Below, piece by piece: positions 12,606 through 22,212 of a stretch of 64,000 bases of DNA. The position numbers and the translations under genes were made by a program. The stretch lies in assembly GCF_026017845.1 (NCBI RefSeq), contig NZ_CP100416.1, positions 3,011,926 through 3,075,925 on the forward strand. Reading direction: 5' to 3'. The DNA comes from Amycolatopsis mediterranei (GTDB lineage Bacteria; Actinomycetota; Actinomycetes; Mycobacteriales; Pseudonocardiaceae). The notes beneath the pieces were generated by a model. That model made no database searches and was not told where the DNA came from. It was given only the letters and a program-made list of their open reading frames with translations. Position 1 is the first letter of the stretch, and every line of letters begins with the position of its first letter.

Positions 12606-12651
12606 CGGTGGGAAAGCCCCGACCAGCAGGGGAACAGACGTCCTTTAAGGA

Positions 12652-12676
12652 CCCGTCCGGTGAGGCGGGGAAGGAG
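12652..12676 (+). promoter_or_regulatory. PyrR-binding RNA stem-loop next to the pyrR ribosome binding site
   Basis: CCCG (12652-12655) pairs with CGGG (12666-12669) around the loop UCCGGUGAGG (12656-12665). This matches the PyrR-recognition consensus UCCNGNGAGG. The ribosome binding site AAGGAG (12671-12676) follows after one base, so bound PyrR would block translation rather than cause termination, as shown for Mycobacterium smegmatis. No terminator-like structure with a T-run is seen. Confidence 0.75.
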
Positions 12677-12682
12677 TCCGGT

Positions 12683-13297
12683 TTGTCGTCACGCCCGCGT
12701 GACGCGGCTGGTTCGGCCGGGGAGCGCGAGCTCCTGACGGCCGGCGATGTCGCGCGCACGATCGCCCGAATGGCCCATCAGGTCATCGAAAAGACCGCGA
12801 ACGGTGCGGAGAGCACTACCCCGCCCGTGTTGCTCGGCATCCCGTCCCGGGGCACGCCGCTCGCGGTCCGCCTGGCCGACAAGATCGGCGAGTTCTCCGG
12901 CGTCCGCCCGCCCACCGGCGCCCTCGACGTCACCCTCTACCGGGACGACCTCCGCCGCCGCCCGCCGCGCGCGCTCGAGCAGACGCAGCTGCCGCCGGAC
13001 GGCATCGACGACCGCGTCGTGATCCTGGTCGACGACGTCCTCTTCTCCGGCCGGACGATCCGGGCCGCGCTCGATGCCCTGCGTGATCACGGCCGGCCCC
13101 GCGCGGTCCAGCTGGCCGTCCTGGTCGACCGCGGTCACCGCGAGCTGCCGATCCGCGCCGACTACGTGGGCAAGAACGTGCCGACCGCCCGCTCCGAGGG
13201 CGTGTCCGTCCTGCTGGCCGAGATCGACGGCCGGGACGCCGTCTTGCTGCGTCCCGCGGAAACCGGCCCTTCCGAAGCTGCTGGAGAGGACTCGTGA
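12683..13297 (+). CDS. pyrR: bifunctional pyr operon regulator / uracil phosphoribosyltransferase PyrR
   Basis: A 204-residue type I phosphoribosyltransferase-fold protein that binds pyr mRNA when UMP/UTP is high and has weak uracil phosphoribosyltransferase activity. The PRPP signature [15 protein letters not shown] is at about residues 111-125. [13 protein letters not shown] and [14 protein letters not shown] are family signatures. The rare TTG start at 12683 is chosen because AAGGAG lies 6 bases upstream and directly follows the PyrR-binding loop. The next in-frame candidate would remove conserved sequence. It ends in a GTGA overlap with pyrB. Confidence 0.9.
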
Positions 13298-15524: not shown

Positions 15525-16018
15525 TGGAGCGCTTCTGGCTCGTGCTGGCGATTTTCGCCTTCTTCCTGCTCTGCGTCTGGGGCATGTACGTGGGCTGGCG
15601 CCGCAAGGCGCGCTCGCAGAGCGTCCAGGTGCCGCCGTTCCCCGCCATCCCTTCGGACGCCGGTGACGTGCTGCTGGAATCGACCGGCGTCTACCTCGCC
15701 ACGACCTTTGCCGGGGAGTGGCAGAACCGGATCGTCACCCGCGGCGCGGGGCTGCGCACCGGCGCGGTCTGGCGCCTGCACGACGGCGGTGTCGCCGTCG
15801 AACGCGGGGGAGCGCCCGACTTCTGGATCCCGCGGGAGGCCGTCACCGGCATCCGGCGCGACACGAAGATCGCCGGGAAGGTGATGGGCACCGACGCGCT
15901 GCTCGTCATCACCTGGCGGCTCGGGGACGCCGGGCTCGACACCGGCTTCCGCGGCGACGACCTCGACGACTATCCACAGTGGATCGAACAGCTCAAGATC
16001 AAGGGAGGTGCCCAGTGA
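15524..16018 (+). CDS. membrane-anchored PH-like domain protein of the pyr operon
   Basis: A 164-residue protein with one N-terminal transmembrane helix (about residues 4-24) followed by a basic GWRRKARSQ stretch and a beta-rich domain of about 130 residues resembling bacterial PH-like domains. A gene of this kind sits between pyrC and carA in many actinobacteria (Rv1382 in M. tuberculosis). Its role there is unknown; it may tether pyrimidine enzymes to the membrane, but this is speculation. Its ATG overlaps the pyrC stop, and its end carries AAGGGAGG, the ribosome binding site of carA. Confidence 0.75.
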   Translation: MERFWLVLAIFAFFLLCVWGMYVGWRRKARSQSVQVPPFPAIPSDAGDVLLESTGVYLATTFAGEWQNRIVTRGAGLRTGAVWRLHDGGVAVERGGAPDFWIPREAVTGIRRDTKIAGKVMGTDALLVITWRLGDAGLDTGFRGDDLDDYPQWIEQLKIKGGAQ

Positions 16019-17136
16019 ACGCGCGCGCTCAGGCCGCACTGGTGCTCGAAGACGGCCGGGTGTTCCGCGGCGCTGCCTACGGCGCGCAGGGGCGAACCCT
16101 CGGCGAGGCGGTGTTCTGCACCGGTATGACCGGCTACCAGGAAACGCTGACCGACCCGTCCTACCACGGGCAGATCGTGGTGCAGACCGCGCCGCAGATC
16201 GGCAACACCGGCTGGAACGACGAGGACGACGAGTCCTCGAAGATCTGGGTCAACGGGTATGTGGTGCGCGATCCCGCCCGGACGCCGTCCAACTGGCGCT
16301 CTCGCCGGACGCTGGACGAGGAACTGGTGCGCCAGGGGATCGTCGGCATCGCCGAGGTCGACACCCGCTCGCTGACCCGCCACCTGCGCGAGCTGGGCGC
16401 GATGCGCGCCGGGGTGTTCTCCGGCGACGCGCTGGGCAGCGTCGACGACATGGTCGCTTCGGTGTTGGCGAGCCCGAAGATGGAAGGTGCCGACCTGGCC
16501 GGCCAGGTCAGCACGCCGAAGCCGTACGTGGTCTCACCTTCCGGCGAAGTCCGCTTCCGGGTGGTCGCGCTGGACTTGGGCATCAAGTCCAACACCCCGC
16601 GGCAGATGGTCAAGCGCGGCATCGAGGTGCACGTGCTGCCCTCGAGCTCGTCGTTGGACGACCTCCTGGCGATCGAGCCGGACGGGGTGTTCCTGTCGAA
16701 CGGCCCGGGCGACCCGGCCACCACGGTGCACGCGACCGAGCTGACCAAGCAGGTCCTGGGCCGCGAGATCCCGCTGTTCGGCATCTGCTTCGGCAACCAG
16801 GTCCTCGGCCGGGCGCTCGGGCTCGGCACGTACAAGATGCGCTACGGCCACCGCGGCATCAACATCCCGGTGATCGACGTGGCGACCCGGTCGGTGGCCA
16901 TCACGGCGCAGAACCACGGCTTCGCCCTGGAAGGCGAGCCGGGCCGGCGCTTCGAGTCCCCGTTCGGGGCGGCGCAGATCAGCCACTATTGCCCCAACGA
17001 CGACACGGTCGAGGGCGTGCGGGCGCTGGACGTCCCGGCGTTCTCGGTCCAGTACCACCCCGAAGCCGCGGCCGGCCCGCACGACGCGGCCCCCCTGTTC
17101 GACGATTTCGTTTCGCTCATGGAGAAGCGGTCGTGA
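16015..17136 (+). CDS. carA: carbamoyl-phosphate synthase small (glutaminase) subunit
   Basis: A 373-residue subunit that hydrolyses glutamine and channels ammonia to CarB. The N-terminal CarA-specific domain starts AALVLEDGRVFRG and contains GMTGYQETLTDPSY. The class I amidotransferase domain starts near residue 180 (RVVALDLGIKSN) and has LSNGPGDP, the nucleophile Cys in GICFGNQ, and His/Glu in VQYHPEAAAGP. In most organisms carB follows directly; here two unrelated genes intervene. The stop overlaps the GTG of the ATPase gene (GTGA at 17133). Confidence 0.97.
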   Translation: MNARAQAALVLEDGRVFRGAAYGAQGRTLGEAVFCTGMTGYQETLTDPSYHGQIVVQTAPQIGNTGWNDEDDESSKIWVNGYVVRDPARTPSNWRSRRTLDEELVRQGIVGIAEVDTRSLTRHLRELGAMRAGVFSGDALGSVDDMVASVLASPKMEGADLAGQVSTPKPYVVSPSGEVRFRVVALDLGIKSNTPRQMVKRGIEVHVLPSSSSLDDLLAIEPDGVFLSNGPGDPATTVHATELTKQVLGREIPLFGICFGNQVLGRALGLGTYKMRYGHRGINIPVIDVATRSVAITAQNHGFALEGEPGRRFESPFGAAQISHYCPNDDTVEGVRALDVPAFSVQYHPEAAAGPHDAAPLFDDFVSLMEKRS

Positions 17137-18305
17137 CCCTCACGACCGGCATCGAGCGGCTCCGGATCCGGAATTTCCGGGTGCTCCGGGACGTCGAGCT
17201 GGCCGGCCTGACGCCGGTGACGGCGTTGCTCGGGCCGAATGGCAGCGGCAAGTCCACGGTCTTCGACGCATTGGACTTCCTCTCCGAGTCGCTTCGGGCG
17301 GGGCTGCGCTCGGCGTGGAACCAACGCGGGGGCGCCGCCGACATCGTGACCCATGGGTCGACCGGGCCGGTCGAGATCGAGGTGACCTGCCGCATCGAAG
17401 GCGCGGTGGCTGAGTACCGGCTTGCCATCGAGCACGACGATGACGAGCCGGTGGTGGCCGAGGAGAACCTGAGTTGGCAGCCGGCGGGGGCCGAAGCGCC
17501 TTCTGAGGCCCTGGATCTCCGGCGCGGGGCCGGAACGGTCGCCGGGATCGGAGCAATCGGTGGACAGCTTTCGTTGGCTACGCCGGACCTACTCGGCGTA
17601 GCTGTGGTCAGCCAGCTCGCCAACACGGCCGAAGTCGGCAAGTTCTACCGGTTCATCACCGAGATTCGTCTCTCGGATCTGGCTCTCGACGCGATGCGTA
17701 ATGGCGCGAAGGACGACAAGACGTCTCGGCTCAAGCCGGATGGCCGGAACGTGGGGGCCATCGTCCGGCGTATGCGCAACGGGCTTCCCCGCGAGTGGGA
17801 GAACATCCGGGCTTCGCTGCAGAGGTACGTCCCGGGATTCGAGGACATCGAACCCTTCGAACACGGCAACGGCGCCTGGATCGTCCGCCTGCGCGAACAG
17901 GGCAGGGAAGACCTCATCGCCCCGGAAAACATCTCGGACGGAACGCTGCAACTGCTCGGCTATCTGGTCGCGCTCCAAACCGATACCTCGGTGCTGCTGG
18001 TCGAGGAGCCGGAGAAGCAGGTCCACCCGCGACTGCACTACCGGCTCGCCGAGGACGCGCGGCGGACGGAGACAGCTGGTCAGGTCTTGGTCGCCACCCA
18101 TGCCCCCGAGTTCGTCGACCCTCTGCGGCCTGACGAGGTCTGGATGCTGTTCCGTGACGAATCCGGCTTCGCCCAGGCCCGGCGAGCGGCGGACATCCCT
18201 CAACTGATGGCCATGGTCGACAGCGGGGGCCTGCTGGGGAATCTCTGGACCGAAGGATTCTTCGGCCTCGGTGACCCCCTCGACCGGCCGGGGCAGCCTC
18301 GGTGA
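17133..18305 (+). CDS. OLD/ABC-type AAA ATPase inserted in the pyr operon
   Basis: A 390-residue RecF/OLD-like AAA_21 ATPase without a fused nuclease domain. It starts ERLRIRNFRVLRD and has Walker A GPNGSGKST (residues 34-42), an ABC-signature-like NISDGT (266-271), Walker B LLVEEPE (288-294) and a switch histidine in ATHAP (His323). All ATP-site elements look intact. It overlaps carA upstream and the DUF4276 gene downstream by 4 bases each, so it is translated as part of the pyrimidine operon. Base composition is visibly less GC-rich than in carA and carB, which suggests horizontal acquisition. ATPases of this type with a separate TOPRIM-like partner are common in phage-defence systems (PARIS, Gabija and split OLD are related in logic). 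Its exact function is unknown. Confidence 0.85.
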   Translation: MTLTTGIERLRIRNFRVLRDVELAGLTPVTALLGPNGSGKSTVFDALDFLSESLRAGLRSAWNQRGGAADIVTHGSTGPVEIEVTCRIEGAVAEYRLAIEHDDDEPVVAEENLSWQPAGAEAPSEALDLRRGAGTVAGIGAIGGQLSLATPDLLGVAVVSQLANTAEVGKFYRFITEIRLSDLALDAMRNGAKDDKTSRLKPDGRNVGAIVRRMRNGLPREWENIRASLQRYVPGFEDIEPFEHGNGAWIVRLREQGREDLIAPENISDGTLQLLGYLVALQTDTSVLLVEEPEKQVHPRLHYRLAEDARRTETAGQVLVATHAPEFVDPLRPDEVWMLFRDESGFAQARRAADIPQLMAMVDSGGLLGNLWTEGFFGLGDPLDRPGQPR

Positions 18306-18898
18306 TCCACATCGAGATCCTGGTGGAAGAGCAGTCGGCGGAAGCAGCGTTGAAGGCGCTGGTCCCGAAGATCGTCGGTGAGGACGTGTCCTTCGCGGTC
18401 CGGCGCTTCCGAGGCAAGCAGGATCTGCTGAAGCGGTTGCCCGGAATTCTGCGAGGGTTCGCGGCCCGGGTCCCGTGGGAAGCGCTTCGCGTCGTCGTGC
18501 TCGTCGACCGGGACGCCGAGGACTGCCGGGAGCTCAAGCGCCACCTGGTCAGGTTGAGCGGGGAAGCGGGACTTCCGTCCGAGTACATCCTGCACCGCGT
18601 GGTGATCGACGAGCTGGAGTCCTGGTTTCTCGGCGACGTCCCGGCCCTGTGTACGGCATACGACCGGGTGCCGAAAGACCTGGACAAACAAGCGCGTTAC
18701 CGCGATCCCGACGACACCGGCAAGGCGTCGCGTGCGCTGGAGGACCTCCTGCGGTCCAAGAGATATCTCCGAGACCGCTTGCCGAAGGTGGCAGTCGCTG
18801 AAGCCATCGCGCCCCACATGGACATCGAGAACAACCGATCCAAAAGCTTTCAGGTATTCCGCGACGGTCTGCGGCGCCTGGTGAAAGAAGGAAACTGA
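18302..18898 (+). CDS. DUF4276 protein with TOPRIM-like acidic motifs, partner of the ATPase
   Basis: A 198-residue DUF4276 family protein. The order of acidic motifs resembles TOPRIM nucleases: IEILVEEQS near the N-terminus (Glu9/Glu10), [12 protein letters not shown] with Asp69-x-Asp71, and [12 protein letters not shown] with Glu104/Glu106. [29 protein letters not shown] and [10 protein letters not shown] are typical of the family. It probably acts with the preceding ATPase, to which it is coupled by GTGA at 18302; its TGA shares a base with the carB ATG. Nuclease activity is inferred from the motif pattern only. Codon use is less GC-biased than in its neighbours. Confidence 0.8.
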
Positions 18899-21800
18899 TG
18901 CCGAAGAGGACGGACATCCAGCACGTGCTGGTGATCGGCTCCGGGCCGATCGTGATCGGGCAGGCCGCGGAGTTCGACTACTCCGGTACCCAGGCCTGCC
19001 GGGTGCTGCGCAGCGAAGGCCTGCGCGTGTCCCTGGTGAACTCGAATCCGGCCACCATCATGACCGACCCCGAGTTCGCCGACGCCACCTACATCGAGCC
19101 GGTCACGCCGGACTTCGTCGAGAAGGTCATCGCTGCCGAGCGCCCCGATGCGCTGCTCGCCACCCTCGGTGGGCAGACCGCGCTCAACTGCGCCGTCGCG
19201 CTGCACGAACGCGGGGTGCTCGACAAGTACGGCGTCGAGCTGATCGGCGCCGACATCGACGCCATCCAGCGCGGCGAGGACCGGCAGAAGTTCAAGGACA
19301 TCGTGCGCACCATCGGCGCCGAAGTCCCGCGCAGCCGCGTCTGCCACGACATGGACGAGGTCCGCGACACCGTCAAGGACCTGGGCCTGCCGGTCGTCAT
19401 CCGGCCGTCCTTCACCATGGGCGGGCTCGGCTCGGGCATGGCGCACACGCCCGAGGACCTCGAGCGGCTGGCGTCCACCGGGCTCGCCGAATCTCCCGTC
19501 ACCGAGGTGCTCATCGAGGAGAGCGTGCTCGGCTGGAAGGAGTACGAGCTCGAGCTGATGCGCGACAAGCACGACAACGTCGTGGTCGTCTGCTCGATCG
19601 AGAACATCGACGCGATGGGCGTGCACACCGGCGACTCGGTCACCGTCGCCCCGACGATGACCCTCACCGACCGCGAGTACCAGGTGATGCGGGACGTCGG
19701 CATCGCCGTGCTGCGCGAGGTCGGCGTCGACACCGGCGGCTGCAACATCCAGTTCGCGATCAACCCGCGCGACGGCCGGATGGTCGTCATCGAGATGAAC
19801 CCGCGCGTGTCGCGGTCTTCCGCGCTGGCGTCGAAGGCCACCGGTTTCCCGATCGCCAAGATCGCCGCGAAGCTCGCCATCGGCTACACGCTCGACGAGA
19901 TCCGCAACGACATCACCGGCGAGACGCCGGCGGCGTTCGAGCCCACTTTGGACTACGTCGTCGTCAAGATGCCGCGGTTCGCCTTCGAGAAGTTCCCGGG
20001 CGCGGACCCGACGCTGACCACGACGATGAAGAGCGTCGGCGAGGCGATGTCGTTCGGCCGCAGCTTCCCCGAGGCGCTCGGCAAGGTGATGCGGTCGATC
20101 GAGACCAAGGCGACCGGCTTCTGGACGCTGCCCGACCCCGCCGGCGCCACGCTGGAGTCCACTTTGGACGAGCTGCGCACGCCGCGCGAAGGCCGGCTGT
20201 ACGAAGTGGAGCGGGCGCTGCGGCTCGGCGCCACCGTCGAGCAGGTCCACGAGGCGTCGGGCATCGACCCGTGGTTCATCGACCAGATCGCCTACATCGC
20301 CGAGGTCGGCGCCGAAGTCCGTGACGCGCCCGTGCTCGACGGCGAGCTGCTGCGCCGCGCCAAGCGCACCGGGCTTTCGGACCGCCAGATCGCCGCGCTG
20401 AGGCCGGAACTGGCCGGCGAGGACGGCGTCCGCACGCTGCGCCACCGCCTCGGCGTGCGGCCGGTGTTCAAGACCGTCGACACCTGCGCGGCCGAGTTCG
20501 CCGCCAAGACGCCCTACCACTACTCGGCCTACGAGTCCGACCCCGAAGCCCAGTCCGAAGTGGCCGTCCAGCCGGACAAGCCGAAGGTGCTCATCCTGGG
20601 CAGCGGCCCGAACCGGATCGGGCAGGGCATCGAGTTCGACTACTCCTGCGTGCACGCGGCGATCGCGTTGCGGGAGGCGGGGTTCGAGGCCGTCATGGTC
20701 AACTGCAACCCGGAAACCGTGTCCACCGACTACGACACCTCCGACCGGCTGTACTTCGAGCCGCTGTCCTTCGAGGACGTCCTCGAAGTCGTGCACGCCG
20801 AGCAGGCGTCCGGCACGGTCGCCGGCGTCATCGTCCAGCTCGGCGGCCAGACCCCGCTGGGCCTGGCCAAGCGGCTCGCCGACGCCGGGGTGCCGGTGGT
20901 CGGCACGCCGCCGGAGGCGATCAACCTGGCCGAGGACCGCGGCGCGTTCGGCGAGGTCCTCACCGACGCCGGGCTGCCCGCCCCGCGCTACGGCACGGCG
21001 ACGTCGTTCGAGGGCGCGAAGCGGATCGCCGACGAGATCGGCTACCCGGTGCTCGTCCGGCCGTCCTACGTGCTCGGCGGCCGCGGCATGGAGATCGTCT
21101 ACGACGAGGAGACCCTGGCCGGCTACATCAGCCGGGCCACGGAGATCACGCCGGAGCATCCGGTGCTGGTGGACCGGTTCCTCGACGACGCCATCGAAAT
21201 CGACGTCGACGCGCTGTTCGACGGCGAGGAGCTCTACCTCGGCGGCGTCATGGAGCACATCGAGGAAGCCGGCATCCACTCCGGTGACTCCTCGTGCGCG
21301 CTGCCGCCGATCACGCTCGGGCACACCGACCTGCAGGCCGTCCGGCGTTCCACCGAGGCGATCGCCCGCGGTGTCGGCGTGCGCGGGCTCCTGAACGTCC
21401 AGTACGCGCTCAAGGACGACGTCCTGTACGTCCTGGAGGCCAACCCGCGCGCGTCGCGGACGGTGCCGTTCGTGTCCAAGGCGACGGCGGTGCCGCTGGC
21501 CAAGGCCGCCGCGCTGATCATGACCGGCTCGACGATCAAGGACCTGCGCGGGAGCGGGGTCCTGCCGGCCGAGGGCGACGGCGGGCGGATGCCGGCCGAC
21601 TCGCCGGTCGCGGTGAAGGAAGCCGTGCTGCCCTTCCACCGCTTCCGCACCCCCGAAGGCCACGGCGTCGACTCGCTGCTGGGCCCGGAGATGAAGTCCA
21701 CCGGCGAGGTGATGGGCGTCGACGTCGACTTCGGCAAGGCGTTCGCGAAGTCGCAGAGCGGCGCGTACGGCTCGCTGCCGACCTCCGGGCGGGTGTTCGT

Positions 21801-22212
21801 CTCGGTGGCCAACCGCGACAAGCGCTCGCTGGTCTTCCCGGTGAAGCGGCTGGCGGACCTCGGGTTCGAGATCCTCGCCACCTCCGGCACCGCGGAAGTC
21901 CTGCGCCGCAACGGGATCCCGTGCACCGTGGTGCGCAAGCACTACGAGGGTTCGACCGAGGCCGAGCCGAACATCGTGGACGTCATCCTCAACGGCGATG
22001 TCGACATGGTGATCAACACCCCGTACGGGAACAGTGGTCCGCGCGTCGACGGCTACGAAATCCGCACCGCGGCGGTGTCGCGGGACATCCCGTGCGTGAC
22101 GACCGTGCAGGGCGCCGCGGCGGCCGTGCACGGCATCGAAGCGCTGATCCGGGGCGACATCGGGGTCAAGTCCCTGCAGGAGCTGCAGGCGGCGCTGAAG
22201 GCGAAGTCGTGA
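18898..22212 (+). CDS. carB: carbamoyl-phosphate synthase large subunit
   Basis: An 1104-residue synthetase with two homologous ATP-grasp halves. The first starts [14 protein letters not shown] and phosphorylates bicarbonate; the second starts [14 protein letters not shown] near residue 562 and phosphorylates carbamate. The C-terminal allosteric (MGS-like) domain, from about residue 960, begins [13 protein letters not shown] and ends in the family helix. [18 protein letters not shown] and [18 protein letters not shown] are the paired metal/ATP motifs. The ATG shares a base with the stop of the DUF4276 gene, and its stop overlaps the pyrF GTG. Confidence 0.98.

Follow-up and report, generated by a model that had tools for sequence, protein, structure and literature searches.

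Why should two genes be lodged between carA and carB, which encode the small and large subunits of carbamoyl-phosphate synthase? The question is raised by a 64,000-nucleotide (nt) stretch of the Amycolatopsis mediterranei chromosome (NZ_CP100416.1, positions 3,011,926 to 3,075,925), here called the window, in which an ATPase gene and a gene for a DUF4276 protein occupy this junction. An earlier note on this DNA, made from its letters alone, had taken the two for a candidate defence or nucleotide-stress system. We propose that the pair is probably a HEC-01-type anti-phage module housed in an operon (HEC-01 being Hma-embedded candidate 1 of PADLOC-DB), PARIS-like or akin to a split OLD system, and that it behaves as an exchangeable immune allele. 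The biology of its location is a stronger and more surprising result than this defence reading.

Matches to the DUF4276 protein were found in 18 of 80 genomes of the genus, 17 of them whole and one (in G008) a remnant of 27 residues, and all 18 lie between carA and carB, both of which were detected in every genome. With G043 omitted from junctions and trees, its carA and carB being fragmented across contigs, 79 junctions were read: 17 hold the pair, one holds the remnant and 61 hold neither. The carA stop lies -17 to +2 nt from the carB start in 58 of these 61 and none contains a gene-sized insert, in keeping with the earlier note's premise that the two genes are normally adjacent. The comparison of junctions, which that note had proposed as a means of recognizing a recent insertion, reveals a patchy allele at one and the same site (17/79) rather than a pair conserved vertically in all relatives. 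Other DNA is seen in a few pair-less junctions, about 156 nt in G052 (L170) and G063 (L173) and 91 nt in G005 (L189), and in G018 (L154) carA has an in-frame extension of about 81 nt. Second carA and carB matches, 61-64% identical, occur on other contigs of G004 (C121 and C21).

The window genome is a single 10.6 Mb contig in which the pair occurs once; no second copy was found, the DUF4276 protein giving one match and the ATPase one full-length match. A separate AAA-type ATPase gene, with a 405-residue frame 28-38% like the pair ATPase, lies in G000 at C1:1492765-1493799 (L002, L003), and G000 has no DUF4276-protein match beyond the car locus.

Across 390 genomes of the family we obtained 27 matches (E up to 1e-6), 26 of which, including two remnants, lie between carA and carB. 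Outside the genus the pair occupies this junction in G095, G121, G122, G211, G226, G300 and G368 and a remnant does so in G191, and in all the junction is occupied by the pair in seven genera of the family and by a remnant in an eighth. The ATPase frame of G300 is interrupted, in an assembly that is 78% complete. In G377 the pair is divergent and lies between aroK and aroB. Sampling of the order (397 genomes) and of the class (394) gave five matches outside the family: in G725, from another order, the pair again lies between carA and carB; in G800 and G1052 it lies between aroK and aroB, these being the two matching genomes among 40 of the genus of G1052; in G398 it directly precedes aroB, with no aroK seen upstream; and in G971 it stands beside a putative signalling gene. 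A single acquisition, as read from the earlier note, is not supported in view of this spread over seven family genera, a remnant in an eighth and a genome of another order. Searches with the DUF4276 protein as sole query gave 1 match among 50,697 phage records and 10 among 72,556 plasmid records, all below 60% identity.

Occupancy of the junction changes often. On a pyrB-pyrC tree of the 79 genomes at least 15 changes are required for the 18 occupied junctions, and the clade of 27 genomes to which the window belongs comprises 12 with the pair, one with a remnant and 14 that are empty. Within this clade the last two sense codons of carA (17128-17133) are CGG TCG (12) or CGG CCG (1) in all 13 occupied or remnant genomes and AAG GCC in all 14 empty ones. 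Mean r2 between occupancy and flanking single-nucleotide polymorphisms (SNPs) is 0.03-0.10 in carA and 0.03-0.06 in carB (the carB figures computed on the alignment), where about 0.038 is expected for unlinked sites; the top mean, 0.103, belongs to the 300 nt that open carA, at the greatest distance from the insert, and the highest single site, 0.40, lies in carB. The opening 68 nt of carB form the longest invariant run of pyrB, pyrC, carA and carB in the clade. Synonymous divergence of the flanks is similar in empty and occupied genomes; low synonymous divergence at the start of carB was rejected as stand-alone proof of recombination, empty genomes being equally low.

Tree comparisons indicate that sister species hold swapped alleles of the pair. 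The flank trees keep G061 with G066 (support of 100 in pyrC and carB) and G000 with G051 (70 in pyrC, 99 in carB), and the ATPase and DUF4276 trees reject both groupings by 159.7-361.2 log-likelihood units. The outcome for G041 with G047, the third pairing, is less clear: the grouping is kept in pyrC (94) and DUF4276 (42), neither kept nor rejected in carB (p 0.38) and rejected by the ATPase (p 0.016). All three were picked after the fourfold-divergence results, and their p-values are not those of groups named beforehand. At fourfold sites G061 and G066 differ by 0.10-0.15 in pyrB, pyrC, carA and carB as against 0.45 in DUF4276, while G065 and G075 differ by 0.06 in the ATPase as against 0.20 in carA. 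Windows of identity along the pair reveal modules: the N-terminus of the ATPase is conserved, its core varies, and its C-terminus changes jointly with DUF4276. The median ratio of nonsynonymous to synonymous divergence (dN/dS), taken over 78 pairs from 13 carriers, is 0.28 for the ATPase and 0.315 for DUF4276, compared with 0.11-0.16 for pyrC, carA and carB; both genes of the pair are therefore under purifying selection but evolve faster. We propose that occupied, empty and alternative occupied alleles would interchange at this one locus in Amycolatopsis without a recognised mobile element, the likeliest route being homologous recombination in the conserved flanks, carA and carB.

The fit of the pair to its operon is exact, as the earlier note had described; its seamless junctions, coordinates and frames hold to the base (Table 1). 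The 1.8 kb between carA and carB consists of the two pair genes alone. In the window carA overlaps the ATPase gene by 4 nt, its stop TGA (17134-17136) lying within GTGA (17133-17136); the ATPase stop lies within a second GTGA (18302-18305), again a 4-nt overlap; and TGATG (18896-18900) unites the DUF4276 stop with the carB ATG, an overlap of 1 nt. Among the 17 carriers the ATPase-DUF4276 overlap is always 4 nt (start codons chosen by script), the carA-ATPase overlap is 4 nt in 15 (1 nt in G073, 11 nt in G011) and the DUF4276-carB overlap is 1 nt in 16 (17 nt in G011); G073 has TGATG at both ends of the pair. In the G008 remnant part of the ATPase gene and nearly all of DUF4276 are gone, and the GTGA and TGATG joints are kept. 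The putative carB ribosome-binding site falls within the last DUF4276 codons: GAAAGAAGGAAAC precedes the carB start in the G008 remnant and in 15 of the 17 carriers, G013 and G011 having variants of it. In each of the 61 empty junctions GGAG or AAGG occurs no more than 22 nt before carB, mostly in the last carA codons. This junction design fits selection for continued carB translation. The pair would be translated from the pyr/car mRNA through stop-start coupling and would supply the ribosome-binding site from which carB synthesis continues.

Two further features bear on the expression and origin of the pair. The earlier note had placed it behind a PyrR-controlled leader; a PyrR-site-like element is indeed present at the head of the operon, but its 29.8 bits fall below the RF00515 gathering score of 54, and the 40 genus genomes searched all give a sub-threshold match, with none above the cut-off. 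That note had also read the lower GC of the two genes as a sign of acquisition. Their GC content at third codon positions (GC3) is 0.83 for the ATPase and 0.81 for DUF4276 as against 0.93-0.97 for the window pyrB, pyrC, carA and carB, so that the lower GC stands; the means over 17 carriers are likewise 0.83 and 0.81, however, and the low GC3 is therefore no mark of recent arrival.

Table 1. Features of the car junction and of the operon head, in window coordinates.
Feature	Positions	Strand	Basis or remark
PyrR-binding-site-like element, head of pyr operon	12638-12686	+	RF00515 29.8 bits, E 0.55
carA, carbamoyl-phosphate synthase small subunit	16015-17136	+	Pfam CPSase_sm_chain 1.1e-51, GATase 1.3e-41
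ATPase, HEC-01A-like, 390 aa, intact	17133-18305	+	Pfam, PADLOC, predicted model, profiles
Putative Walker A, GPNGSGKST	about 17232-17258	+	in ATPase, intact
Putative Walker B, LLVEEPE	about 17994-18014	+	in ATPase, intact
DUF4276 protein, HEC-01B-like, 198 aa	18302-18898	+	PF14103 71.3 bits (gathering cut-off 30.2); HEC-01B 1e-74
Glu9	18326-18328	+	DUF4276 protein, invariant in 52 aligned sequences
Asp69-x-Asp71	18506-18514	+	DUF4276 protein, invariant in 52 aligned sequences
Glu104 and Glu106	18611-18619	+	DUF4276 protein, invariant in 52 aligned sequences
GAAGGA, likely Shine-Dalgarno for carB	18887-18892	+	read directly; within last DUF4276 codons; function inferred
carB, carbamoyl-phosphate synthase large subunit	18898-22212	+	frame reading; present in 80/80 genus genomes
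First 68 nt of carB	18898-18965	+	no variation across the 27 clade genomes, occupied or empty

The identity of the two proteins is indicated most directly by PADLOC-DB, in which the best model for the ATPase is HEC-01A (9.2e-117) and that for the DUF4276 protein is HEC-01B (1e-74), the two genes being adjacent and overlapping as described. By these matches the window proteins are members of a known candidate kind, and together with the relatives found inside type I restriction operons (see below) they support the earlier note's view of a defence-type ATPase/effector pair. The letters A and B are not bound to one partner: the ATPase is also matched by a HEC-01B model, and the DUF4276 protein by a HEC-01A model. 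HEC-01 is presented as a candidate from an embedding approach, from which several Hma-embedded candidates, HEC-06 included, are antiviral (PMC12988326); HEC systems are listed with mechanism unknown (PMC10855318), and HEC-01 appears as a genome-annotation match in Desulfovibrio piger (PMC12724379). Unlike in HEC-01 as we found it described, the window pair combines fixed housing in a housekeeping operon with allele exchange at one locus; as far as our searches reach, such housing in essential operons and such exchange are undescribed so far. In the open-licence literature searched we found nothing on DUF4276 and, among the matches listed, no carA-carB insertion of this kind.

The ATPase carries intact motifs that we take to be Walker A and Walker B. 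Over its 390 residues it matches ATPase-type Pfam families only (AAA_21, E 3e-25; AAA_15, E 1.9e-14), with none of the fused TOPRIM domain of OLD classes 1-3. Against profiles of solved structures it matches PtuA (5.4e-15), OLD (5.9e-15) and a retron ATPase, then AriA (4.5e-8) and GajA. Its predicted model is of high confidence (predicted local distance difference test 92.1, predicted template modelling score 0.91); in a fold search with this model PtuA chains lead, at template modelling scores of about 0.4-0.5 and large root-mean-square deviations, and GajA as well as Rad50 and SMC heads also match, two of the latter deviating by 5.6-5.7. The search supports an ABC/SMC-type head and no particular system. 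The best NCBIfam match, MADS MAD3 (NF047739), reaches 95.7 bits, far under its cut-off of 420, and the PADLOC AriA model is matched at 2.5e-24, far less well than HEC-01A. PtuA, of Septu and of retrons, is thus both the best profile match and the top fold match, but PtuA acts with the HNH nuclease PtuB, whereas the partner here is a DUF4276 protein.

All 15 PADLOC families that the DUF4276 protein matches are HEC-01A/B and none is AriB; HEC-01B in turn matches all 21 sequences of one DUF4276 alignment. The ordered TOPRIM-like acidic motifs that the earlier note had picked out are present as Glu9, Asp69 and Asp71 (Glu ... Asp-x-Asp), and both aspartates are invariant in that alignment and in a second alignment, of 52 sequences. 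Two alignments were drawn from the best 80 loci of a scan described below, A4 with the window and 51 loci and A3 with the window and 62; L038, L081 and L102 were removed from the DUF4276 alignment for internal stops. Compared with an OLD-type TOPRIM profile by hhalign, the family scores 26.3 (E 0.003, probability 10%), with Glu9 placed on the TOPRIM Glu and Asp69-x-Asp71 on the TOPRIM Asp-x-Asp, in order. None of 100 column shuffles reached 26.3 (maximum 21.3), reversed alignments scored 12-13 and control families 11-16, with the exception of carB at 22.4. The TOPRIM profile is a selected one, made of 13 OLD-type sequences of the same bacterial family chosen by motif, with 10 of 23 TOPRIM loci omitted for want of the motif. 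These alignments give a weak suggestion of a TOPRIM-like fold. PHROGs contains no family for the protein at E up to 1. Apart from DUF4276, the Pfam families that recurred most among the 52 sequences were DUF3226 (4 sequences, best 0.016) and DUF4898 (3 sequences, best 0.0026); we took these matches as noise.

A mechanistic parallel may be PARIS, in which an AriA hexamer holds AriB until phage anti-restriction proteins release it; the freed AriB then forms a dimer and cleaves tRNA-Lys (PMC11455837). As a ribonuclease AriB is of the two-metal TOPRIM type, and the authors of that work favour activation by AriA over plain release (PMC12409363). Like PARIS, the window pair has an ABC ATPase and a putative TOPRIM-type effector as separate genes, and its ATPase matches AriA, though far less well than HEC-01A; unlike in PARIS, the partner is a DUF4276 protein that is unrecognisable as AriB and matches no AriB model in PADLOC. 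With OLD nucleases and Gabija GajA it shares ATPase homology and TOPRIM-like motif order, but in OLD classes 1-3 and in GajA a single chain contains both ATPase and TOPRIM, whereas here they are two proteins. For split ATPase/TOPRIM systems a fourth OLD class has been proposed (PMC10568477). By analogy, the pair would comprise a sensor ATPase and a nuclease effector. An oligomer of the ABC-type ATPase would sense infection and, in complex with its partner, restrain or activate it; the DUF4276 protein, as a TOPRIM-like metal-dependent nuclease, would once switched on cut RNA or DNA, and growth would stop, an abortive outcome.

Relatives in other operons widen the picture. A scan of named genomes yielded 471 confirmed relatives, of which the best 80 were analysed; named records among the nearest include A. 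pretoriensis, A. iheyensis, A. bullii, A. jejuensis and A. coloradensis. Nine of the 80 lie in car (L032-L036, L040-L042, L057; labels assigned by hand) and belong by title to Amycolatopsis, Actinophytocola and Pseudonocardia, all presumably Pseudonocardiaceae. Among the 71 non-car loci, several of which end too near the pair for neighbours to be judged, hsdR starts within about 35 nt of DUF4276 in 15 (L047, L053, L055, L059, L060, L062, L066, L071, L086 (a fragment), L091, L094, L095, L101, L104, L110) and lies farther away in three more (L081, L089, L099). In five of the 15 hsdS is directly upstream of the pair (L053, L055, L062, L071, L094). All five hsdS genes and six of the 15 hsdR genes are confirmed by Pfam, the remaining hsdR calls being by tblastn. 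The hsdS-type proteins of L053, L055, L062 and L071 have an extra N-terminal nucleotidyltransferase (Polbeta) domain, and in L104 (898-6572) the pair has an AbiEi-type regulator gene upstream and hsdR downstream. Other neighbours are unrelated, for example sulfatase, FtsH and FapA genes. In L097 (4074-8816, Rhodospirillales) a GATase_5 gene lies upstream and an AIRS-domain gene downstream, which we read as the order purQ, pair, purL; here as in car the pair stands between a glutaminase subunit and its synthetase. An actinomycete group sits in aro, between aroK and aroB in L193, L194 and L030 and directly before aroB in L190, with efp following in L193. Because relatives are also housed by aro, pur and hsd operons, the sensor need not be specific to pyrimidines.

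A quick tree of 98 pairs (without L051, L066, L080 and the nine named car loci) places 25 car rows on one side of a branch with support of 99, which is the support against the other labelled groups; 4 aro rows are likewise set apart (100), as are 12 hsd rows (96), labelled by neighbour length and found on later inspection to have hsdR in all 12. Because the 25 car rows lie on one side of the branch, a single entry into car may suffice. Three Amycolatopsis alleles (L018, L020 and L021) cluster with L026 of another genus (98) and apart from the remaining Amycolatopsis alleles, a pattern expected of old shared alleles; the placement of L027, on a long branch, is uncertain.

A defence role for the pair is likely on these comparisons, and several observations weigh against it. 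Fifty-three of the 71 non-car loci have no hsdR match, in many the pair lacks a near neighbour on its own strand, and none of the car, aro and pur settings is a defence island. HEC-01 is listed as a candidate, and no validation report for it was found in the open-licence literature. For the effector, the TOPRIM match has a probability of 10% against a motif-picked set with the carB control at 22.4, and the DUF4276 profile gave no match to solved structures at E up to 1.

The HEC-01-type reading can be carried further. The carA/carB junction may be a chromosomal port for immune alleles, empty or filled with one of several ATPase-core/effector types, which are shuffled between species by gene conversion; the conversion might be driven by the nuclease of the pair cutting empty alleles, the pair might guard the product of its host operon, and the aroK/aroB, purQ/purL and hsdS/hsdR copies might be further ports. 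We regard this extension as doubtful. Taken alone, the guard component, in which the pair monitors the host product (CarAB, PurQL, AroKB or a type I restriction complex) and is triggered once a phage has disabled or degraded it, is unlikely. It would accord with the triggering of PARIS by anti-restriction proteins (PMC11455837), with relatives inside hsdS/hsdR and with the splitting of glutaminase subunit from synthetase in car and pur; several unrelated host operons, however, may reflect merely steady expression and recombination arms.

The single insertion point, the clean empty sites and an insert of two pair genes alone would also be expected of a homing-like selfish cassette that cuts the empty junction and is copied in by repair, defence being secondary or absent. 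The separation of the car rows, the aro rows and the hsd rows by one tree branch each, the near absence of linkage between occupancy and nearby SNPs and the invariant 68 nt at the 3' border of occupied and empty alleles alike point the same way. We nevertheless consider such a cassette distinctly unlikely: some relatives lie within restriction operons, the modular allele diversity better suits an arms race, and the conservation of the carB start could serve translation. We know of no homing element of the TOPRIM type.

That the pair is a metabolic accessory, a regulator or repair factor for CarAB or pyrimidine metabolism, could be argued from frames that overlap carA and carB in 17/17 carriers of the genus, and is very improbable: 61 of 79 genus junctions lack the pair, its family recurs in aroK/aroB, purQ/purL and hsd operons, and its alleles swap between species where carB and pyrC do not. 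A recent single horizontal insertion in the strain lineage, without wider meaning, would explain GC and GC3 below those of the neighbours but is scarcely credible with the same site occupied in 17 genus genomes, seven of other family genera, two remnants and one genome of another order, and with a GC3 equal to the carrier mean.

Islands, prophages and mobile elements are the settings in which defence genes are usually reported. Here a defence-type pair is seemingly held at one exact point in an essential operon and renewed by allele exchange, which suggests that island-centred surveys can miss systems housed in biosynthetic operons. The presence and absence of the pair in close actinomycetes form a natural series for testing HEC-01 function and the maintenance of such alleles at middle frequency, a series that also bears on how immune genes may spread without a recognised vehicle.

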